Assembly: GCA_031287715.1 (NCBI GenBank) | Contig: JAITSN010000010.1 | Location: forward strand, 1-55,724 | Direction: 5' to 3' | Length of the DNA stretch: 55,724 nt | Source of the DNA: Mediterranea sp. (in: CFB group bacteria) | GTDB taxonomy: Bacteria > Bacteroidota > Bacteroidia > Bacteroidales > Bacteroidaceae | Shown here: in pieces, positions 1 to 10,458 of the stretch | How the letters are laid out: each line of letters begins with the position of its first letter | Numbering within the stretch: the stretch's first letter is position 1 | The notes under the pieces: model-generated | Told to the model about the DNA's origin: nothing | What the model saw: the letters and a program-made list of their open reading frames with translations, nothing else | Databases searched by the model: none | Made by a program: the position numbers and the translations under genes

Positions 1-300
1 GATACACTTGCGAAAGCCGTAGCCCGCGCAATTCCGATCAGAAAGTCTGCTAAAATATATTGAACGCGAAGATAACGGATTCTTCTTTCAAGCAGTAATA
101 AATGCTGGACGCAACGGACGGGAAAACTGTGGGCACGATAGCTGCCGCTCGTCGGGTTCACGACCGTTGAGTAGAAGCCCAGATAGTGGGCATTGGCGCC
201 TGTGACAACGCAACTCCACGCGTAACCGGAAACATCCGTGTTGATGAGCGCACCCGAAATTTGCTCACGGTAGCCCGCAGCAGGATAAAGAGTAACCACT
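1..300 (-). pseudogene. Silent variable-region cassette 1 (copy of the tip adhesin's hypervariable C-terminus)
   Basis: Read on the minus strand, bases about 290-95 encode YPAAGYR at one end and SFPVRCVQHLLLL at the other. They match the last ~65 codons of the tip adhesin gene (786-3437) at all framework positions but differ at most exposed ones. A short leader shared with cassette 2 contains an in-frame TGA directly before a GTG (TGAGTGGTTACT), so no N-terminal protein is attached. The frame then runs open to the window edge. Its 3' flank (1-125) is a diverged direct repeat of the 3' flank of the tip gene (697-825). Seen: homology, upstream stop, duplicated flank. Inferred: a silent donor copy or a remnant of a former target gene. 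Confidence 0.75.
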
Positions 301-307
301 CAATTAA

Positions 308-618
308 CTATAAGATTGTCCTTAACCTTAAATTTTCATCTGTCAAAGAACGCTATACTTAAACAGTAGCAAATACTGGACGCAACGGACGGCGAGACCA
401 TAGGCGCGACTGCTGCTGTACGCCGGATACACAACCGACGAATAGAAGGCCAAGTGGTAGGCAATAGCGCCTGAGACGGCACTACTCCACCAGTCTCCGT
501 CAGAACCTGTGCCGGTGAGTGCACCGGAAGTATGGTAACGGTAGCCCGAAGCAGGATAAAAAGTAACCACTCATTTAACTATAAAACCGACTGAAAAAAG
601 TTTCGGACAATCTTATAG
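308..618. repeat. 14-bp inverted repeat bracketing cassette 2
   Basis: CTATAAGATTGTCC at 308-321 and its exact reverse complement GGACAATCTTATAG at 605-618 enclose cassette 2 plus short flanks. The match stops on both sides after 14 bp. It could be a recombination or inversion site, or paired flanks left by the cassette duplication. No recombinase gene is in the window. Confidence 0.7.
343..570 (-). pseudogene. Silent variable-region cassette 2 (copy of the tip adhesin's hypervariable C-terminus)
   Basis: The minus strand from about 560 to 366 encodes YPASGYR, a variable core, and LAVRCVQYLLLF. This is a second stand-alone copy of the tip adhesin C-terminus. It shares TATCCTGCTTCGGGCTACC with the intact gene at its 5' end and GTCCGTTGCGTCCAG at its 3' end. 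A TGA lies immediately before the only possible start (GTG), so it is probably not translated as an adhesin. The cassette is bracketed by a perfect 14-bp inverted repeat (308-321 and 605-618). It could be a recombination donor, an extra DGR target, or debris from a deleted tandem gene. Confidence 0.75.
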
Positions 619-696
619 ATCACACTATAACTAACGGATACGCAGTAATAGCTCTGCGACCATATTACACCGTCAGTAGGTTACTGGATTTACTTT

Positions 697-825
697 GATA
701 CACTTGCGAGAGCCGTAGCCCGCACAATTCCGATCAATAAGTCTGCTTTAAGTAGATTTGAATGCGAAGATAACAGATTCTTCTTTTAAACAAGTAATAA
801 ATGCTGGACGCAACGGACGGGGAAG
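697..825. repeat. Diverged direct repeat of bases 1-125 (3' flank of the variable regions)
   Basis: Both stretches start GATACACTTGCG, carry GCCGTAGCCCGC and AATTCCGATCA at the same spacing, and run into the 3' end of a variable region (AATGCTGGACGCAACGGAC on the plus strand). The offset is about 696-700 bp. Cassette 1 and the intact gene therefore share a duplicated 3' flank that cassette 2 lacks. A short stem (GAAGA / TCTTC) is conserved just beyond the variable region in both copies. Confidence 0.8.
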
Positions 826-3437
826 CCTAAGGCACGATTGTGGCTGATCACCGGGCCAACGTCCTTAGAGTTGAAGCGCAGAGAGGAGGCATTGGTGCCT
901 GAGAGGGCGCAACTCCAATAGACACCAGCAGAACCCGTGGCGGTGAACACACCGGAAGTCTGCCCACGGTAGCCCGAAGCAGGATACCACGCTACATCAC
1001 CACCATACCAAGGAGTATCAATACCTGAGTAATAATTCTTACCAGCAGTAGGAGTCGGAAGAACATTATTCTTACCATACAAACGACCGGCAGTACCCGC
1101 CTGACCCGTTACCTGGGCAAACCATGGGAATGGGCCTATATCATTATTACCCCAAACAGTATCATAAGTTACATTCGCTGCACTACTAAACAAACCATTA
1201 CCAAAACCAGACCACGGATTATAAGCAGCCGTAGCACCACCGGCAGGAACACGCCAACCCGGAGGACAAGGATCAAAAGCTGTTTTCGCAGTCATACTCC
1301 ATAAACCATCATCCTGTTTCGTCCAATCATTACTAACCCCTGAATGGTAATAATTCATCGGATGACGAACAGCATCAACTACACGATTAGTAGCAACACT
1401 ACCATTAGTAACCTTAGGAAAACCATCAATGCTATTATTATTTACATCAGCAGTTATTGAATTACCATCCATATCGGTACCCGCTGCAGCACCGGAAGCA
1501 TATGAATACTTTGCACCATCCTTGTCATAAACAGGAGTTGCACTAGCCATAGTAGTTGTACCGTTATCAGAATTAGTAAACGGATCTTTACGTCCCCATT
1601 GATACATCAAACCATACCATTTTACAGCTTCAGCCGTAGTCTTAGGTTGCTCTTGTTCTACAGTACCATCAACATTGAAAATCGTAGCTCCCAAGTTACG
1701 GTCCATCATCCTCTTATCATAATACAAACCGGCAGTTGTAAACGCTTCACTAAAATATTTATGTGTCTGACCTTTCCTGTTAGCCACAACATCAGCAGTA
1801 GGATCATAATCCGTAAACCACAAATGCCATGACCACCAAACTTTACCGGAGTTGTCTTTTAAAACAATTACACAGTTATTACCAGCAGCAGTAGGAATAG
1901 CATTAGCGCCAGTAGGAAATGACAATGTTGCGTAATAAGTTTCACTAATATTATCTTCAGTAGTTATGCCATCAGCAACAGCACCTTCTACATTAGTCGA
2001 TCCATTACCTGATCCCCAAGTCCTCCACAAAGTTTCAATTTTCCAATCTTTTTTAGCAATCTCAGTATCAAAATCACTGGTATAATTCGCAGAAATACCA
2101 CCCGCCTTCAATACATTATCGATATAACGCCATCCATTACGAGCTTGCGTTAAAGGAATAGTAAAAATCGCAGAAGTACTACCCGGATTAATAATATAAG
2201 AATTTGCCATTGGCTGAATATCAAGATTCTTAGTGTTTGTTTTTATCCTAGGATCGCGTATACTGGTAACAGTAATACGGGTATCATGATTAGGAGTACC
2301 AACAGCAGCACCTTCACCATAGATATAAGTTGTAACATTGTATTGCGTATTGGCAAGCAAATTCATATCACCGGCATTATCACCACCCAGATAAATCTTA
2401 TATTTCACATTCATTATTGTACCTTCGGCAGTTTCATAATCCAGATCGACTAACAAATAAGTCCAACCTACAAGATTATTATCATCAGTTCCTTTATTTG
2501 CAGCACCTACCTTATTAGGAATCTTATCCTTATTGCTTGTTATTTCCAGGTAGGATCCACGGGCATTCTCAGGCATATAAGCCGTAAAAGAAGCGAGTTT
2601 ACTTCCGGTAGTCTGGTTGTGCTCTACATCAAGTATTACAAATTCAGAAGCATTATATCCACCATCGTTGGCAACAGCACCGGCCTTCGTAACAGCAGGA
2701 TAAGGCGTTTGGGTACTAGGCCACTCTCCAGGCTTACCATTGGTCGGTAAAGCCGGACGGTTCTTGGGAAAGAACGTGATTGTCTTCGGTACATTATGCA
2801 AGGAAATAGCCTTAACCGTAGTCACTACACTTTTACCTCCTATCTTAAAATTAGTAAGATTCAGTGTAAAATTAACCTTTGCCAACGAACGCCTCAACGT
2901 TACATTGATTTGGTTAGTAACACCTAATGTAATACCGCCATAGTAGAATCCGGTCATAGGCATATACTTCAAATCCGCTATTCCAGCGACATTCTTCAGA
3001 TCTAAAGTATAATTCAGAAAATCAGTATACGTTGATACTTTCTCAGTCAGTTTAACCGCTTCACCGGTAATAGTCCTGACATTAGCTATGAAAGCAATAA
3101 AAGATTCCGCACCATTCGACACAATCGCACCATCTTCACCAAGTGTGGTGGCAGGTATATCTTGCATATCTGTCAGTTCAACAGCTTGGGCGAACATTTT
3201 ATTGTCCAATGGTAGGCTTTTGACCAAAAGTCCATTTTTGAACTGCAATACAGTAATGTCTTTAATGGCAGATTCATCCGTTGCACGGGTACCCAACTGA
3301 ATAAAGTCAGGGGTTTCAAAAGCCACACGTACGACAGTAGTGTCGTTCTTGACAGGCTCATTCCGATCGTCCTGACAAGAAAACAATGTCAGGCTTGCAC
3401 ATAACAAAAAGCTGGTAAAATAAATTATCCTTTTCAT
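786..3437 (-). CDS. Type V pilus tip adhesin lipoprotein with FISUMP / C-type-lectin-like hypervariable C-terminus
   Basis: This 883-residue protein is the last gene of the pilus operon. It begins with a lipoprotein signal (MKRIIYFTSFLLCASLTLFSC, Cys about 21). Residues ~90-400 resemble fimbrillin-type beta domains. From ~480 it is a FISUMP-type (Fibrobacter major paralogous) domain with MMDRNLGA near 575, YQWGRKDPF, and FDPCPPGWRVP near 725. The last ~65 residues (plus 795-987) have the framework YPASGYR...TGSAG..YWS...SG..A..LRF......P.....RALGFPVRCVQ. This is the pattern of DGR-diversified C-type-lectin proteins in Bacteroidales. Family knowledge: such tips sit at the distal pilus end and bind ligands. 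The gap to the next upstream gene is 27 bp, so it is cotranscribed. The ligand is unknown. Confidence 0.85.
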   Translation of the reverse strand: MKRIIYFTSFLLCASLTLFSCQDDRNEPVKNDTTVVRVAFETPDFIQLGTRATDESAIKDITVLQFKNGLLVKSLPLDNKMFAQAVELTDMQDIPATTLGEDGAIVSNGAESFIAFIANVRTITGEAVKLTEKVSTYTDFLNYTLDLKNVAGIADLKYMPMTGFYYGGITLGVTNQINVTLRRSLAKVNFTLNLTNFKIGGKSVVTTVKAISLHNVPKTITFFPKNRPALPTNGKPGEWPSTQTPYPAVTKAGAVANDGGYNASEFVILDVEHNQTTGSKLASFTAYMPENARGSYLEITSNKDKIPNKVGAANKGTDDNNLVGWTYLLVDLDYETAEGTIMNVKYKIYLGGDNAGDMNLLANTQYNVTTYIYGEGAAVGTPNHDTRITVTSIRDPRIKTNTKNLDIQPMANSYIINPGSTSAIFTIPLTQARNGWRYIDNVLKAGGISANYTSDFDTEIAKKDWKIETLWRTWGSGNGSTNVEGAVADGITTEDNISETYYATLSFPTGANAIPTAAGNNCVIVLKDNSGKVWWSWHLWFTDYDPTADVVANRKGQTHKYFSEAFTTAGLYYDKRMMDRNLGATIFNVDGTVEQEQPKTTAEAVKWYGLMYQWGRKDPFTNSDNGTTTMASATPVYDKDGAKYSYASGAAAGTDMDGNSITADVNNNSIDGFPKVTNGSVATNRVVDAVRHPMNYYHSGVSNDWTKQDDGLWSMTAKTAFDPCPPGWRVPAGGATAAYNPWSGFGNGLFSSAANVTYDTVWGNNDIGPFPWFAQVTGQAGTAGRLYGKNNVLPTPTAGKNYYSGIDTPWYGGDVAWYPASGYRGQTSGVFTATGSAGVYWSCALSGTNASSLRFNSKDVGPVISHNRALGFPVRCVQHLLLV
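795..987 (-). other. Variable region (VR) of the tip adhesin gene, DGR-type
   Basis: Against the two cassettes, codons fall into two classes. Framework codons are invariant (for example TGGAGT, and GTCCGTTGCGTCCAG at the 3' end). Variable codons keep the third base but change the first two: GCC/GGC/AAC, GTC/GAC/TAC, TCC/TAC/CAC, CGC/GCC/GGC, ATC/TAC/AGC, CAC/AGC/AGC. All of these derive from AAC by changing adenines only. Some other codons also differ at third positions, so ordinary drift is superimposed. The invariant 3' block is where the homing-initiation element lies in known DGRs. Confidence 0.7.
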
Positions 3438-3464: not shown

Positions 3465-4676
3465 TCAATCTCCCATTTGGGAAGCCCACGTAGCACTGTT
3501 CCAACCGGAAGCAGAAACGAGAAACATATTATTATTATCACTACCTCCCATACCTGTTTGCCAGGAAACAGAAGACCAACTACCCAAAGAAAATATCGTG
3601 GGATTCTGCGTATCAGTCTCTCCCATTCCGCTTTGCCAAGCTATAGAAGACCAAGGCTCTCTGGAAAGATAAAGATTAATTTTATCAGACAAGCCGTCTA
3701 ATTCGACTATAAAACGATACCGATAGCCCGGCTCAAAAGGCGGTGCCTGCACATTTTGAGCTTCAAGTGTGGTTTCACCATCATTAACACGCAAACGGAA
3801 ATCCAGATTCAACGTATTATAGATTCTACCCACTGAATAAGGTAAAATAATACCATCATCAGACGTGGCTTTGTCATCTTTATCATCCACCTCAACCTCC
3901 GTACCCGAAAATGAAACTGAATAAGAAGTGGTATAACCGGATCCTATTACGTTCAATGCGATAGGATCACCTGAGAATGGAAGACTTGCCCTCCTTGGCA
4001 AGCAGCTTTTAAAGTCCATACCGGCAACTGCATACTTAAACGATGTTGCCGTTGCCGGCTTAGTGATAAATTCTTTAAAGAAATCTTCAGTAATACGGGC
4101 TTCGACACAAACAGCGCTACAAAGATGTGGCAGTTCGCCGGCAACAGCACCGAATTTATTGAATTCGACGTTTATTGTAGGATTACCCGACGCCTCCGCT
4201 CCTTCCACTTTCCCCGCCAATATATCGGTTCCATGTGTGAATCCGGTAAGAGCACCGGAACTAAAACTAAAAGTACCAAAGTCTTTAGCTGTTGGAGTGG
4301 CATTAACCACAGCTACAAAATCGTATTTGTAACCGTACCGAACCATTAAAATACCATCCGTTAATACAGTACCATTCTCAAGTTTCTCAAGAACAACATT
4401 CTTTTCGGAAGTCTTCCCTATAACAATCCTATGGGGAGTAACCGAAAAATCAGGAGCTGAGGCTATCGCCCGACGAAAAACATAAATCTTAAGCGGCGTA
4501 TCTTCCGGAAAATCGGCACGCGTCAAATGTCCTACCGAAAAGGTCACAGCAACCTCCTCCGGATCTTCTTCAATAGGAATCGGAGAATCGCCCGGGTCGG
4601 AAGAGCATCCCCAAAGCAATAACACAAGAATAAGATACCTATGTCTGAACAATGTGTGTAAACAGTTATTAAACAT
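3465..4676 (-). CDS. Fimbrillin-family pilus lipoprotein with triplicated C-terminal motif
   Basis: This 403-residue exported protein has a lipoprotein-like N-terminus (LVLLLWGCSS, Cys about 24) and beta-rich sequence typical of FimA/Mfa-like subunits. It lies between the tip gene and another fimbrillin, so it is probably the tip-adapter or a minor subunit. The C-terminus is odd. The motif W(S/N)S..W(Q/A)..MG(E/G/D) occurs three times: WSSIAWQSGMGETD, WSSVSWQTGMGGSD and WNSATWASQMGD (residues ~347-403, plus ~3468-3640). In type V pili the C-terminal strand is often the donor that completes the next subunit. Repeats there could give alternative donor strands, but that is inference. Confidence 0.75.
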   Translation of the reverse strand: MFNNCLHTLFRHRYLILVLLLWGCSSDPGDSPIPIEEDPEEVAVTFSVGHLTRADFPEDTPLKIYVFRRAIASAPDFSVTPHRIVIGKTSEKNVVLEKLENGTVLTDGILMVRYGYKYDFVAVVNATPTAKDFGTFSFSSGALTGFTHGTDILAGKVEGAEASGNPTINVEFNKFGAVAGELPHLCSAVCVEARITEDFFKEFITKPATATSFKYAVAGMDFKSCLPRRASLPFSGDPIALNVIGSGYTTSYSVSFSGTEVEVDDKDDKATSDDGIILPYSVGRIYNTLNLDFRLRVNDGETTLEAQNVQAPPFEPGYRYRFIVELDGLSDKINLYLSREPWSSIAWQSGMGETDTQNPTIFSLGSWSSVSWQTGMGGSDNNNMFLVSASGWNSATWASQMGD

Positions 4677-4728
4677 ATATAGTGTTTTTTGAATTTATTA
4701 TTCACTTCAATGGCATAGCCCTTGGCGC

Positions 4729-5832
4729 TTAAGGTTTGGGCTGTGTCAAATCAATGTCATCAGCCGGATCATAGCCCCAATTTTTAGCGCCTAAAGAAAT
4801 CGACACTTCACTCTGAATCAAGTCAATATCATCGTCATTATTGATCCAATCCTTCCCACCCAACTGAATCTTAATCTCGGAAAGATCAACAACGATACTT
4901 ACAAGGCGGTATTTACCGGATGTGGATGTTTTAAACCCTGCCCAAGTGCCGGGTGTAGTAAAATTCTCACCGTTCACCTTAAAACTCAATGAGGTAATAG
5001 CGGATTCGGGTAATAAGAGGATCTGTTCAAATACCTCGGTAGCCAAAGTTTCATCCTTGCCCAATGATGGAATAACTTTACCATTCGGAAGATCGGTAGT
5101 AATAAAAGAAGCTGTATAGCTGGTTGATCCTCCAGCTACTTCTGTTGTTTTGCCTGTGGAAATGTCAAATTTAAACTTCTGAGAAGTTGAAGTACCTATC
5201 GTAATACTTTCCATCCGAAGTTCAGGATTTACTTCATGCTTGGCTACGGCAATCTTAATCATAGACATCAAATGCGAATATTCAAACTTCACCGGATCGC
5301 CGGACGCTGTGACATCAATCTGCCCGTCCCACAGCCAATCAATCTGTGTCTTGTCTGATGCCAAGTCGGAGAACAGATCGTTTTCGATTTCTTTATTTGC
5401 AGCAGTAACTGAACTTTGGTAGGGATAATAGCTATAAAACGCATGTTTATATGTTCTCACTGCAAAATACTTCTCAGGACCAGCTACCGTTACTTCCTGT
5501 ACTACATCTTTAGTAGTTGGCACAGCACCTACAGTAGTTGGCACAGCACCTACAGTACCTTCTTTATTATCGAAAAGGTCTGGGCTGGACTGCCAATCCG
5601 ATGATGCAGAGGCAAGATAACTGTAAGCAAATATACCTATAGATTTACCTGCAGGTAAGTATTTGTCATTCACTATCGCACGAGATTCTCCGTCGATATG
5701 AACAGCAGGAGAAACAGCAAACCGAATGGGCTGTAAACCTGAATACAACGTTTCGTTGTTTTCCGAAGAACAAGCTGCCCACAAAAGCAAAATGCCTCCT
5801 GCTAACGCCCAATTGCATAGATTTCGTTTCAT
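4729..5832 (-). CDS. Fimbrillin-family pilus lipoprotein with duplicated C-terminal motif
   Basis: This 367-residue fimbrillin-like subunit has a lipobox (LLLWAACSS, Cys about 21). The N-terminal domain includes IGIFAYSYLAS and YSYYPYQS, and the SHLMSMIKIAV segment matches the conserved SH.M..I.I core of FimA-like proteins. Two internal repeats are visible. VGAVPTT occurs twice in tandem (21-bp unit, plus ~5514-5555). At the C-terminus, LGGKDWINNDDDIDL and LGAKNWGYDPADDIDL repeat one another. The gene starts 7 bp after the neighbouring upstream stop, so translation is probably coupled. Likely a shaft subunit. Confidence 0.78.
   Translation of the reverse strand: MKRNLCNWALAGGILLLWAACSSENNETLYSGLQPIRFAVSPAVHIDGESRAIVNDKYLPAGKSIGIFAYSYLASASSDWQSSPDLFDNKEGTVGAVPTTVGAVPTTKDVVQEVTVAGPEKYFAVRTYKHAFYSYYPYQSSVTAANKEIENDLFSDLASDKTQIDWLWDGQIDVTASGDPVKFEYSHLMSMIKIAVAKHEVNPELRMESITIGTSTSQKFKFDISTGKTTEVAGGSTSYTASFITTDLPNGKVIPSLGKDETLATEVFEQILLLPESAITSLSFKVNGENFTTPGTWAGFKTSTSGKYRLVSIVVDLSEIKIQLGGKDWINNDDDIDLIQSEVSISLGAKNWGYDPADDIDLTQPKP
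4732..4870 (-). repeat. Duplicated C-terminal coding motif in a fimbrillin
   Basis: The last ~46 codons hold two copies of a ~22-residue motif of form I.LG.K.W...DDIDL.Q. Both lie exactly where the donor strand of a type V pilin would be expected. The analogous position in the next gene (3465-4676) carries an unrelated triplicated motif. Confidence 0.7.
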
Positions 5833-5839
5833 CTTTCTA

Positions 5840-6967
5840 TTAATTGTATGTTTTATCTATTTCAACATTACCATCATCGACCCAAGTCTTGATAACAATA
5901 CCCAGCTTAATATCTGTCCTAAATTCCAAGTCGAGCGTGTATGATTTACCGGCAGCAAAACCACCGGTAGGAGCTGCAATAGATACTGTATAAGTAGTAG
6001 TACTTCCCTTTTCTGTTTCAACAACAAGATCTACTTTATTTGTTTCGGGAACCACCTTTGTTTCGGGAGCCACCATGGCATAACCGGCCAAAGCAGAATC
6101 AGTGACCTTTTGACCGGACTCATAATACAGAACAGGCAATACTCCATTATTGTATTCAATCACAGAATTACTAACCGGATTTCTGCGAATAATAGGCAGA
6201 TTATCGTTTCCATTAAAAACCACTATAGCTTTATCGCTTGTTGTAGCGTCAGGAAGCGTTGCAACACATGTTTGCTTCTTACCTGTAAGGGATATGGATT
6301 TCACCCCGCCATACAGCCCTGCCACATCGGGGTCATAAGTATACACACGCACACGGAAGCGGGTTAGCAAGTGATCAAAAGTCATTGTAGTAGTAGTAGT
6401 AGGATTTGGTGGTGGCTGGCTTACCTCTACCAAATCCAGGTTGGACATTATAATATCCGTATCTCCATTAACATCGAAACTAACAGTCGCCGTACCAGAA
6501 GCATCAACACTCCATGTTGAACCATTACCAACGGTAGGATACCAACCTATAAGTTTAGTTTTATCGTGGAGCGGATGAGATAGATAGTACTCTATACCAA
6601 CAAAACTCATAAGTATATCCAAATTATTTCTCCTCAGACGTCCCTTACGGGGAGCCTGCCCCACTCCATCGACATTGGTTGCCGTATAAGAGGATGGATA
6701 AGAACCGTCTGTTTCGTTCTGATCTAAACGAACAATGGATAATGGTAATTCCTGACCTCCAGCAAGAATATGTTCTTTGTAAATACTTCCTTCGCCACGA
6801 GTTTCTACATCGAAAACGGAATCGAAGTTAGTAGAGACTGCAATCTCACCTGATTTCGAATCGGAAATACTTTCATCGTCACCTGAACAGGCTGAAAATG
6901 CGACTGCAAACAAGCTATAGATTACAGACACGTATAGGGTATATTGGATTCTCTTGGATAACATCAT
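5840..6967 (-). CDS. Fimbrillin-family pilus lipoprotein
   Basis: 375 residues. The signal and lipobox are FAVAFSACSGD (Cys about 26). VETRGEGS near residue 55 offers an Arg-containing site of the kind cleaved during type V pilin maturation in Porphyromonas; whether that happens here is unknown. FDHLLTRFRVRVY is the FimA-like H(L)L(T)R.RV core that follows the N-terminal domain. The C-terminus ends in IKTWVDDGNVEIDKTYN, a typical single final strand with no repeats, unlike the two downstream subunits. Likely a shaft subunit. The start could be either of two adjacent Met codons. Confidence 0.8.
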   Translation of the reverse strand: MMLSKRIQYTLYVSVIYSLFAVAFSACSGDDESISDSKSGEIAVSTNFDSVFDVETRGEGSIYKEHILAGGQELPLSIVRLDQNETDGSYPSSYTATNVDGVGQAPRKGRLRRNNLDILMSFVGIEYYLSHPLHDKTKLIGWYPTVGNGSTWSVDASGTATVSFDVNGDTDIIMSNLDLVEVSQPPPNPTTTTTMTFDHLLTRFRVRVYTYDPDVAGLYGGVKSISLTGKKQTCVATLPDATTSDKAIVVFNGNDNLPIIRRNPVSNSVIEYNNGVLPVLYYESGQKVTDSALAGYAMVAPETKVVPETNKVDLVVETEKGSTTTYTVSIAAPTGGFAAGKSYTLDLEFRTDIKLGIVIKTWVDDGNVEIDKTYN

Positions 6968-7053
6968 GAACAGGATTCGTATAACAAATAAACTTTCAAT
7001 TATAGCAGGGTATATAGGAAAGCCTGACGGCCTCCCTATACCCTAAAAATGAT

Positions 7054-8076
7054 TTAATCGGCAATCTCACCCTGGAATTCGCCTTGCTCATCCCAATCAT
7101 CAACCGTAACATCAACCATAATGTCATTATTTGACTTAAAGTGGATCGAGATCAAGAATGAATGACCGGCAGTGTTACCAGTGAAATCAGATCCACCAAC
7201 AGCTTTCAGATCAATACCGATATACTTAATGCCCTTATTAGCAGTAGTGATCGCCAGAAAATATTCGTTAGCGGCGGCGGTAGCATTTACAGGAGCTACC
7301 ATACTGTAGCCTACGTAGTCTCTTATCGTCGTTAAGGTATAATCGGAAACAGCTACATCAGTATATAGTTTGTTATCATCAAGGACATCAAGACTAAGGC
7401 CGTAAAAATCTAAAGAAGCAGTGGTGCCTTTGGAAGCTACAACCAACGGATCTGTATAGGCAGACGAGTTATTCGCCACTTCTATTTGGTTAGTTACATT
7501 ACCTCCTCCGGAAATATTACCTACCAGCTTAATAGCCTTTATATTTCCAAATAGATTAATTGCAGCTGCGGAAGCAAACAATTTCACTTCCAATTTGGTT
7601 AGCAAGTGCTGGAAATCCAACGTCTTGTAGTTACTACTTTCCACATCAGTTCTTCTTGTCTCAATTCTGTTGGTAGCCATTACATCTTCTTTACCAGTAA
7701 AAGTAAAATTAGCTTTACCGTCATTTAAATAAGTCCAACCTTCAGGATACAAACCAAACAAATATACAGGAGACGCACCACTAAAATATGTGGTACCGTC
7801 TGTTGTTTCGATATCATAACTTACCGCATCAATGCTATTAAAAGTCATGGTTCCATTAGCAGTAGACTCACCGACAAAGTTCTGCATATTGTCGGCAATA
7901 ACACGAGCCTTTAATTGATTAGCTATGCTAATAGTACCTTCAAAAGGAGCACGAGTAGCTATCTCCGAGGCATTAACTGCAATTTTCACGTTATCGCTAT
8001 CTACAATCGTAATTTCACTCTTTGAGCAGCCAACTAAAGCTGTTGCCGCTAAAACTATTAAATAACTTTTTCTCAT
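7054..8076 (-). CDS. Fimbrillin-family pilus lipoprotein (probable major shaft subunit)
   Basis: 340 residues with a short lipoprotein signal (MRKSYLIVLAATALVGCSKSE, Cys 17). IATRAPFEG near residue 43 resembles the Arg-processing segment of FimA/Mfa1. DFQHLLTKLEVKLF at ~150 is the family core, and the protein ends in VTVDDWDEQGEFQGEIAD. It is the first fimbrillin after the anchor gene. That position and its compact size fit a main structural subunit, though the sequence alone cannot rank it against the 5840-6967 product. Confidence 0.8.
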   Translation of the reverse strand: MRKSYLIVLAATALVGCSKSEITIVDSDNVKIAVNASEIATRAPFEGTISIANQLKARVIADNMQNFVGESTANGTMTFNSIDAVSYDIETTDGTTYFSGASPVYLFGLYPEGWTYLNDGKANFTFTGKEDVMATNRIETRRTDVESSNYKTLDFQHLLTKLEVKLFASAAAINLFGNIKAIKLVGNISGGGNVTNQIEVANNSSAYTDPLVVASKGTTASLDFYGLSLDVLDDNKLYTDVAVSDYTLTTIRDYVGYSMVAPVNATAAANEYFLAITTANKGIKYIGIDLKAVGGSDFTGNTAGHSFLISIHFKSNNDIMVDVTVDDWDEQGEFQGEIAD

Positions 8077-8152
8077 CTTTCTTTGTTTTTAATAAATGAA
8101 ATATTAATACTTACATAGAAATTGCTTCCAGTTTACTTTCTTCTCCATCAAC

Positions 8153-9091
8153 TCAACCCTCACGAATTCCTTCCGGTTCACTTTCCTCTTCCTCAATCCA
8201 ATCTTCCACATTCACAGCAGCCTTGATGATACCATCATCCGTAATCGTCACATCAACTGATATGGAAAGCTTTGATGGAATAGTTCCTTCATTTATTGCA
8301 TCCGAAAGAGCTTTGGTTAAATCCAGCGTTGTTTTGGAAGAGGTTCCGTCATTCATCGTCAGATTGAGTTCCAGACTATTCGTGTAATCGGGATCGTTAT
8401 GCACACCAAAAAGGGAAATATGTGCCTCACGTTTATCTCCTTTTACAACCGTCTCAAAATTGACAGCCATCTGCGGACTTTGATCTATTCCCGCTCCAGC
8501 ACGGGTATAAAGACGAACAGCAGGATAAATACCGGGCAAAACACCTGTCATAGAAACAACTTTAGTATCCAATCCATCCTGCATTGTGAATACCAATTCC
8601 AAATGCTTAGTCAGCAAAACAGGCACAGGTTCCTGGCGAACGGTATCACCTTCCGTGACCACCAAATTTTCGACAATAACGGAATAAACACTGTCGGGCT
8701 GCAAAAGCATGGTATAATCAGCGGAAGTATTCGGAGACAGTCCTGCCTTTACAATAGCTGTTTCATAACTGTCCATCTCATCAAATAGCACATGGGAGGC
8801 AGACGTATTCGTAGCTATCACACGATAAGTACCTGTAAGTAAGGTTCCCTCGAAGTTACCGTTATTATCGCTATCCAACTGAAAGTACTCGGTCTTGCCA
8901 TCTGTATTATAGAAATGATATTGCACTACAGGAAGTATATGTTCTGATGTAGGATAGATCTCTACCCTACCTTTAGGCGACTCAATATATACAACATCTG
9001 CACGGGTACAGGCGTAATTAGCGATTAACAAATAACAAATAACCATGAACCATACGGAACATTTCCTAATATGTGTATAAGGTTGTCTCAT
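8153..9091 (-). CDS. FimB/Mfa2-like pilus anchor lipoprotein (DUF5119-type)
   Basis: 312 residues. The N-terminus is hydrophobic with ANYACTR as probable lipobox (Cys about 28), followed by GRVEIYPTSEHILP and a second beta domain. It ends with WIEEEESEPEGIREG. Proteins of this family in Bacteroidales sit immediately before the fimbrillins and anchor the pilus base in the outer membrane while limiting its length. The start overlaps the previous stop (ATGA, 9088-9091), indicating translational coupling with the DUF3575-like protein. Confidence 0.72.
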   Translation of the reverse strand: MRQPYTHIRKCSVWFMVICYLLIANYACTRADVVYIESPKGRVEIYPTSEHILPVVQYHFYNTDGKTEYFQLDSDNNGNFEGTLLTGTYRVIATNTSASHVLFDEMDSYETAIVKAGLSPNTSADYTMLLQPDSVYSVIVENLVVTEGDTVRQEPVPVLLTKHLELVFTMQDGLDTKVVSMTGVLPGIYPAVRLYTRAGAGIDQSPQMAVNFETVVKGDKREAHISLFGVHNDPDYTNSLELNLTMNDGTSSKTTLDLTKALSDAINEGTIPSKLSISVDVTITDDGIIKAAVNVEDWIEEEESEPEGIREG

Positions 9092-10458
9092 CTGAATATA
9101 TAAATTAAGTTGATATTCAAATCGGTCACTTTAATCTTATCATATGGTTGCCGACTCTTAAACCAATTATACTTTCCTTCACGCGTATACAAAATGGAGT
9201 TGGTTGTCAGATAACCCATACGGGCGCCAACTTCAACGGCCCATCCTCTACCCAATTTGAAAGTAAGTCCGGCAGATAATCCTGCATCCCAGTAATTGCC
9301 GGTATAATTGGTACTTTTTTCTTGTTTCAAACCGGTTTCAGGATCAGATTCTATCCGGTTTATATCATAATCTCCTACCCTGCCGTAAAGCCCCAAGTAA
9401 AGCTCCAGCCAATCGTCGGAAAGACTGAAATGATAATGAGGTTCCAACCTATATCCGGAAATCCCCTGAAACTCTTGATCATGATTGTAATGCCAATAGC
9501 TGTAAGCTGCGCCTAACTCTACCGACCAGTTGGGAGTGACAAAATACTCTAACGCTACATTAGCCAAAGGAGTAGTATATTTAAAATCCGGCAGTACACC
9601 GATCCATGACAACAAATTGGTTTTAATTGCAAATAAGGGTTTACCTGTTTCACCCCTGTTTTCTTTATATTTAAAGATGGGTTCAACATCTTCCTTTTCC
9701 ATTGAAGGAGGCGGAGGTGAGGGTGGTAATTGGGTTGCATCCGCTTTCGGGGTTTCGTTCACTTCTTTGGGAACATTTTTTGAAACATCAGATTCTTTTT
9801 TTTCCAATACATTATAGATCAACGGATCATTTTCTTTGAAAGGCGCTAAAGACTGACGGGTATCATACTCGATCTCGATCTCTACCCTACGCAACTGATC
9901 AAAGAGATAGCGTTCCATATACCAAAAGGCACGACCACCATTCAATTTTACAAGCAGGGATTCACGGGTATCAGAAGACCGTATCTTACAAATAATTTCG
10001 AGCACTTCTTTTTTCTCGGGCAATTCGGAATTACGGAGCAAATGTGAAAGACCATCCCAATCTTCGGGAACCCAAATTATATCCACCGGATAACGATAAA
10101 GATCAGGATAGTTTGTGTTAAGGTAATCGCGGATATTGCAGACACGCCCGTAAGCCAGACGCTCGTTGGCCAAATAAGAACCTTCAATAGAAGAATAACC
10201 AGCCAAGCGAATACGACGAATACGCATACGGGAATTGGTTACCGCTGAACGAATAAAAGAATCGAGCTGAGATAATGCCTCTGCATTATTTCCCAAATTC
10301 GAATGAATTTCAGCGCTACCCAGCGGATAAACAAAACGGCAAACATGCTTTGCTACACCCTCACCTTCATCAACTCTCTCCTTGAATTGAGGAGCGAATA
10401 AAGCATATCCGGGTATAAAATACACCAACAAAATGAATTGTAACGATAATCTCTTCAT
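9088..10458 (-). CDS. OmpA-like / DUF3575 outer-membrane protein heading the pilus operon
   Basis: 456 residues with signal peptide (FILLVYFIPGYALF). The N-terminal half resembles an OmpA-like fold (IRLAGYSSIEGSYLANERLA near residue 85). A Pro-rich linker (PPSPPPPSMEKED) spans about 245-260. The C-terminal ~180 residues are a DUF3575 beta-barrel, starting LFAIKTNLLSWIG and ending in INLIYIFR with a terminal aromatic-rich strand. Its position as first gene of type V pilus operons is recurrent in Bacteroides. A role as outer-membrane assembly partner or cell-wall link is inferred from context. Confidence 0.8.
   Translation of the reverse strand: MKRLSLQFILLVYFIPGYALFAPQFKERVDEGEGVAKHVCRFVYPLGSAEIHSNLGNNAEALSQLDSFIRSAVTNSRMRIRRIRLAGYSSIEGSYLANERLAYGRVCNIRDYLNTNYPDLYRYPVDIIWVPEDWDGLSHLLRNSELPEKKEVLEIICKIRSSDTRESLLVKLNGGRAFWYMERYLFDQLRRVEIEIEYDTRQSLAPFKENDPLIYNVLEKKESDVSKNVPKEVNETPKADATQLPPSPPPPSMEKEDVEPIFKYKENRGETGKPLFAIKTNLLSWIGVLPDFKYTTPLANVALEYFVTPNWSVELGAAYSYWHYNHDQEFQGISGYRLEPHYHFSLSDDWLELYLGLYGRVGDYDINRIESDPETGLKQEKSTNYTGNYWDAGLSAGLTFKLGRGWAVEVGARMGYLTTNSILYTREGKYNWFKSRQPYDKIKVTDLNINLIYIFR

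Follow-up and report, generated by a model that had tools for sequence, protein, structure and literature searches.

A predicted pilus-tip gene of Mediterranea sp. followed by an RT-7-like RNA and orphan repeats: a possible outpost of a genome-wide diversity-generating retroelement

We analysed a stretch of 55,724 nucleotides (nt), hereafter the window, from contig JAITSN010000010.1 of GCA_031287715.1, a draft genome of Mediterranea sp. (2.5 Mb, 121 contigs, 83.6% complete). Near its start, on the minus strand, lies a predicted pilus-tip gene (786-3437; 883 amino acids, DUF4906) that ends in a variable repeat (VR) and is followed by two orphan copies of this repeat, c2 and c1. On balance, we read this locus as the tip-gene outpost of a genome-wide diversity-generating retroelement (DGR), in which the orphans are likely former template-RNA units; we predict that both they and the tip gene are at present rewritten from templates elsewhere.

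Results

A repeat search of the window detects a 224-nt unit present three times (identities of 75% and 69%), and tblastn puts all three copies in one common frame. All of them are on the minus strand. The intact tip gene, whose C-terminus is also variable in the tip homologues listed, carries its VR at 789-989; c2 lies at 364-570, and c1, a member of the same family by tblastn, at 90-299. An in-frame TGA stands immediately before the GTG of both c1 and c2. The first-pass annotation of this DNA had described three in-register copies side by side, two of them stop-preceded extra variable regions; the register and the stops agree with this description. The copies are not directly adjacent, as a conserved RNA spacer (734-556) separates the VR from c2, and a 64-nt spacer (300-363, minus strand) separates c2 from c1. 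What the annotation overlooked is the identity of the first spacer, an RT-7-like RNA of a kind that stands 5' of template repeats in relatives.

This structured RNA (556-734, minus strand) directly follows the tip gene and ends 14 nt inside the start of c2, which thus occupies the template position, given that in relatives an RT-7-like RNA stands directly 5' of template repeats. It matches the full length of the Rfam model RF03028, RT-7 (107.2 bits, E 6.7e-26, model positions 1-191); we use the name RT-7-like because the matches score under the gathering score of the family. RNAalifold on 13 array copies from three genomes gives two stems with 25 pairs, 4 of which have compensated changes on both sides. 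According to the 5' flanks of 21 copies, the short spacer ends like RT-7 (GGACAATCTTATAG...GTGGTTACT). One arm of the last RT-7 hairpin (597-618, minus strand) forms an inverted repeat with it, being 86% complementary to 308-329, and arms matching this inverted repeat are also read from the flanks in the relative G062. A second RT-7-like RNA begins at 1-38 (minus strand) and is cut by the contig end, which is window base 1. The reverse complement of window positions 1-74 equals C38:1-74, an exact 74-nt overlap; thus, the repeat array likely continues on contig C38, where an RT-7 match spans C38:37-227. Weak Rfam matches to microRNA, snoRNA and leader families were taken as chance. In the C38 array (L019:607-1264), a HigB-like toxin gene and a helix-turn-helix antitoxin-like gene lie between two orphan copies.

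Outside the clade, RT-7 leads templates. We surveyed 30 of the 34 RT-7 matches listed there, in 19 genomes, omitting three weak ones in G006 and one array member in G516, whose repeat was read separately. A repeat was scored as template-type if at least 11 Asn codons occurred within the 230 nt that follow; by this measure, 25 of the 30 loci carry such a repeat directly 3' of RT-7, so that we take the spacer after the tip gene as the mark of a DGR template-RNA unit. Two of the other five have a variable-type repeat, one a shortened repeat and two none. In RT-7-led pairs of template and target, the mismatches fall at template adenines in 12/12 cases in G077, 25/26 in G161 and 19/21 in G029. Weaker pairs are G108, with 16/27 when a tail outside the repeat is counted, and G069, with 2/5 and a shortened template. 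Loci that go against a simple rule of RT-7 followed by a template are G108, the one with the shortened template (L147, 2/5), L184 and L186, which have no repeat behind RT-7, and G036, where the order is target, RT-7, template repeat (TR), yet only 28/76 mismatches are at template adenines. G155 holds a DGR without an RT-7 match, at 17/17. This tie between RT-7 RNA and the template position of DGRs is drawn in the present analysis, from sequence comparison; our literature searches listed no work about this RNA or about arrayed DGR templates. The RNA itself probably goes back to work by Weinberg in 2017. Two further loci may be recorded here. At G036:C3 (L141) a target gene, an RT-7 RNA and an Asn-rich template occur together, with diverged repeats and no match to a reverse transcriptase (RT) within the 3.2 kb examined. 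G446 (C5 and C15; L192, L193) has three mutually different RT-7-led Asn-rich templates, another case of several templates in one genome.

The draft genome contains 14 full repeat copies (E <= 1e-14), far more than chance would give, namely that of the tip gene and 13 orphans, 2 in the window behind the tip gene and 11 elsewhere. They lie on contigs C43, C100, C38, C35, C25 and C22, and on all six a copy or its spacer comes within about 200 nt of a contig end; the contigs of the draft break at repeat arrays. At the same threshold, 5 of 158 same-genus genomes have a match: this genome, two Mediterranea metagenome-assembled genomes (MAGs; taken to be G061 and G062, as places and lengths are identical) with the same copy family, and two with more distant repeats. 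No match was found among the viral contigs, phages and plasmids compared. Counted over three genomes, there are 20 orphans, and in nine of them (six in this genome, c2 included, and three in relatives) RT-7 ends at a constant offset, 14 nt inside the first codons. The VR of the tip gene lacks this leader.

The reading frame of the orphans is constrained. There are 0 stops in the 20 orphans, compared with a mean of 9.3 and a minimum of 1 in 300 trials of a null in which an equal amount of change outside adenine-type positions is placed at random. Among distinct changes outside these positions, 50 are synonymous and 61 are not, out of 117 and 282 possible (odds ratio 2.7, p 4e-5).

The variation among the copies is centred on adenine. 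The G077 template, which is independent in that it had no part in choosing the columns, maps to 168 columns; the mean entropy of the 14 own copies is 1.03 at template adenines and 0.49 elsewhere (p 2e-7). With the adenine-rich copy of G062 as template, entropy exceeds 1 bit in 20/38 adenine columns and 23/154 other columns. This copy, which has AAC runs and 38 adenines, stands in an array beside an RT and is alone in having CGT at codon 63, where 20 others have NAT. It has 12 Asn codons, and in the cells at these codons a pyrimidine (C or T) occupies the third position in 155/168, against 285/434 at other variable codons (p 1e-12). The third-base result outweighs the entropy result, since exposed positions of any such fold might vary most. 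Variation is not confined to adenine columns but extends to many others, so that ordinary divergence or the use of several templates contributes. Column entropy, third-base and codon statistics agree with the adenine-centred variation of DGR type that had been proposed for the locus; the AAC-type codon pattern proposed along with it holds statistically, not for every single codon.

DGR-type RTs occur at three places in the genome (C22, C55 and C105, the last cut by the contig start), and no RT match lies within the window itself. The best PDB match is 8ub7 at 8e-30, listed as 'Reverse transcriptase', which we take to be the RT of the BPP-1 DGR; the next match is at 3e-5. The RT matches PHROG 1423 at 6e-91, and homologous RTs adjoin adenine-biased TR/VR pairs. 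The single Avd gene stands directly before the C55 RT, next to alaS. It matches PHROG 3206, 'Avd protein of DGR' (2e-17), NF033474 (1.7e-10, below its cut-off) and PF22296 (9e-10; 39.4 bits against a cut-off of 40). The order alaS-avd-RT is kept in two Mediterranea MAGs, where no repeat lies beside it within the 15.6 and 16.2 kb examined. RT and Avd are under purifying selection, with a ratio of non-synonymous to synonymous substitution rates of 0.05-0.13 (3 of 15 RT pairs gave no value), and the YxDD motif is intact in 6/6 RTs. The template beside the C22 RT is a fragment, and that beside the G062 RT is a 3' end only. The first-pass annotation had counted the absence of any RT or template repeat from the genome against its reading. 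That reading is not refuted in this way: RTs are there, and the template is missing only from an 83.6%-complete draft. A GC-rich motif, CCTTCTGTTGGGGG, occurs near the C22 RT (L017 near 4467, minus strand) and at the C55 contig end (L024 near 6568, plus strand); it is perhaps a small repeat element that broke the assembly.

A second case, G516, belongs to another family and is 99% complete. Its contig C33 carries a DGR with target, Avd, RT-7, template and RT, and C36 carries four tandem RT-7-led templates. Five further RT-7 units, all before orphans, were found after the survey of 30 loci, and RT-7 leads 7/7 orphans. The templates (5/5) have 38-45 adenines and the template-type end GCATTT (GCATTC in one). 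The orphans have 24-37 adenines, and 6/7 have the target-type end GCAGAA (4/5 distinct ones, three being identical). We tested for mosaics with costs and switch penalty set once, with adenine-rich template-type units and not target-type orphans as donors; the P values are uncorrected for several tests. For the gene-borne target beside the C33 DGR, a mosaic of two remote templates, arr4 and arr3, gives a better fit than templates with shuffled columns (P 0.005), differing at 13/43 adenines and 9/148 other sites with five end columns set aside. The neighbouring C33 template fits it worse (16/43 adenines and 30/153 others). The orphan C14_45 is matched by arr2 and the C33 template, closing with a stretch of arr1 (P 0.0025), and for C30_4002 and C37_13417 the mosaic also beats the shuffles (P 0.0025 each), with more non-adenine mismatches. 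No fit to a template mosaic was obtained for C26_200 (P 0.60) or the three identical copies (P 0.41-0.43), so that, of 6 distinct variable sequences, a mosaic accounts for 4 (P 0.0025-0.005) and fails for 2. Such mosaics could also arise if copies recombined with each other after being written; writing from the array is favoured because the mismatches are biased to template adenines. The identical orphans (C33_90598, C14_4739 and C30_11228; L201-L203) sit at separate places and are 96-98% identical over about 540 nt including repeat and leader, which looks as if an RT-7-led unit had moved recently.

The rest of the pilus operon, six open reading frames at 3465-10458 on the minus strand, has Pfam matches to Mfa_like_1 in two (one below cut-off), DUF5119 and DUF3575, and two frames have no Pfam match. 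With a fimbrillin fold in a pilin operon, the tip gene qualifies as a predicted type V pilus tip, and here the Pfam matches of the operon and the fold matches of the tip bear out the earlier assignment. The VR lies at the C-terminus of the gene, and the target may bind a ligand. Since the fold matches of the whole tip barely test its C-terminal domain, we claim no fold for the variable region; a single-sequence fold of the C-terminal third reached a predicted local distance difference test score (pLDDT) of 32 and was not used. Hypervariable repeats of the same fold (YYWSAS...SVRCVQE) occur at G000:C73:6000-24261 (L126) and in 14 further stretches (L127-L140), at nine places on C73, and may be DGR targets.

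Discussion

We propose the following course of events. The orphans would have begun as template-RNA units: each has the template leader, either whole or as its 3' end, and the tip gene has none, so that they look descended from template units and not from tip genes. Loss of the template-type 3' end may then have turned the units into targets. Adenine-rich templates would exist in the unassembled part of the genome, and from these RT and Avd are predicted to overwrite the orphans and the tip repeat in trans, by adenine-mutagenic reverse transcription. No own copy is adenine-rich (the 13 orphans have 21-35 adenines per 192 nt, against 38 in the G062 copy), no orphan explains the tip repeat and the RT-side templates are fragments; thus, a template in use, if there is one, should lie in the missing part of the genome.

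Several results weigh against this proposal. Searches of the 83.6%-complete draft by DNA, Asn-rich protein and AAC pattern found no adenine-rich template in the own genome; a single exact AAC-pattern match, on C60, was rejected as lying inside a longer ordinary reading frame. In DGRs across clades, at least 75% of TR/VR mismatches are at template adenines (PMC8144416). From c2 to the tip repeat the count is 13/55, below that level; c2 and the tip gene therefore do not function as a TR/VR pair. The RT-7 matches remain below the cut-off, the spacer missing the gathering score of 116.8, which is reached in 1/158 same-genus and 0/393 order-wide genomes. In the other 11/20 orphans the spacer is shorter, and of RT-7 it retains just the 3' end. 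In G516, seven of 12 RT-7 units carry target-type repeats, and RT-7 alone therefore makes no unit a template. That templates turned into targets, in this order, is deduced from the end types of a small number of copies. Finally, a control of 22 repeats of the same fold in the genome has a similar, weaker adenine excess among variable columns (p 0.009, against 0.001 for the repeat family), so it is not a clean negative; the control repeats may themselves be DGR targets.

It is possible that the orphans are used as stored templates, RT and Avd copying pieces of several diversified, RT-7-led orphans into the tip gene. Template anatomy in 9/20 orphans, the conservation of frames and RT-7 core, and the G516 target and orphan that fit mosaics of RT-7-led templates, array members included, all speak for such a bank; however, we hold it to be unlikely, as the orphans are adenine-poor and the G516 donors were adenine-rich units of template type. 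Moreover, each of the 20 single orphans leaves 35-56 non-adenine mismatches when tried as template of the tip gene, and a mosaic of own orphans fits the tip repeat no better than shuffled sequences do (P 0.12; including the copies of the relatives gives 0.06, and using the six RT-7-led orphans by themselves 0.44), which also counts against our own proposal.

Less probable still is the idea, raised in the first-pass annotation, that the orphans serve as recombination donors; they would then be silent cassettes that convert the tip gene, in the manner of pilS and pilE. The copies share the spacer on their 3' side, and exchange or shared descent among the orphans is likely, since for 7/13 own orphans a mosaic built from the remaining orphans fits better than shuffled sequences (P < 0.03, four at the floor of 0.005), some without adenine bias (c1 differs at 2/31 adenines and 14/161 other sites). 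The pair C100_c/C25_a has 13 differences within codons 1-19, against 2 within codons 20-64; this mosaic is not retrohoming, as none of the 22 adenines in codons 20-64 of C25_a is changed. For the tip gene itself the suggestion is not supported: across the 91 pairs of own copies, a permutation test finds no global significance (P 0.43 when run on codons and 0.05 when run on sites, the latter with 4 pairs at P < 0.01 against 0.9 expected), and the longest run common to the tip gene and another copy is 27 nt of the conserved end, with no donor tract. We give as little credence to the view that tandem and dispersed copies are functionless relics of an old DGR unit. It would suit the lack of an assembled adenine-rich template and the truncated templates beside the C22 and G062 RTs, but it sits poorly with the stop-free frames and synonymous excess of the orphans and with purifying selection on RT and Avd.

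Returning to the DGR with templates elsewhere, we tentatively suggest a wider form of it, which we regard as more doubtful than the basic proposal. RT and Avd may serve scattered RT-7-led units in trans, with VRs stitched combinatorially from several templates, a change of the 3' end switching a unit from template to target, and RT-7 acting as the recognition leader; the result would be an evolving library of tip surfaces.

RT-7, known by name only in its Rfam line, gains a computed role as 5' leader of DGR template RNAs in Bacteroidales. In two families, DGR units have multiplied and spread to places away from the enzyme, and G516 provides evidence for one target drawing on several remote templates. 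If this is true, how a DGR protects its template from mutation, and what follows when it fails, becomes testable. DGR finders that require one adenine-rich TR near an RT would likely miss such systems.

In Neisseria, silent pilS cassettes donate to pilE by gene conversion. That system resembles ours in having one intact locus and many partial copies; however, no donor tracts are found in the intact gene here, and RT, Avd and a template leader are found instead. The Rfam family RF03028 shares with the window spacer a full-length match and conserved stems, but the spacer stays under the gathering score, and the Rfam line gives just the name and 'sRNA'. Bacteroides DGRs diversify type V tip pilins (Macadangdang et al. 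2024, via the review PMC12632263), likewise combining a DGR with a tip-pilin target that has a variable C-terminal binding domain. The passage of that review is silent on template position; here, RT and Avd lie at alaS away from the targets, and the RT-7-led orphans are scattered. The BPP-1 DGR (PMC12875486) has in common with ours RT, Avd, template and variable repeats, and the end difference between the initiation of mutagenic homing (IMH) site and IMH*. In BPP-1 the structured RNA forms a spacer on the 3' side of the template, whereas the RT-7 element is 5' of it here; the passages of that paper on BPP-1 make no mention of orphan repeats, which are present here. DGRs with several VRs or two TRs (PMC6642488) also have more than one repeat per system, but in that account the VRs lie in the open reading frames of target genes, whereas here most copies are orphans in alternating arrays, with a template-RNA leader that is either whole or reduced to its end.

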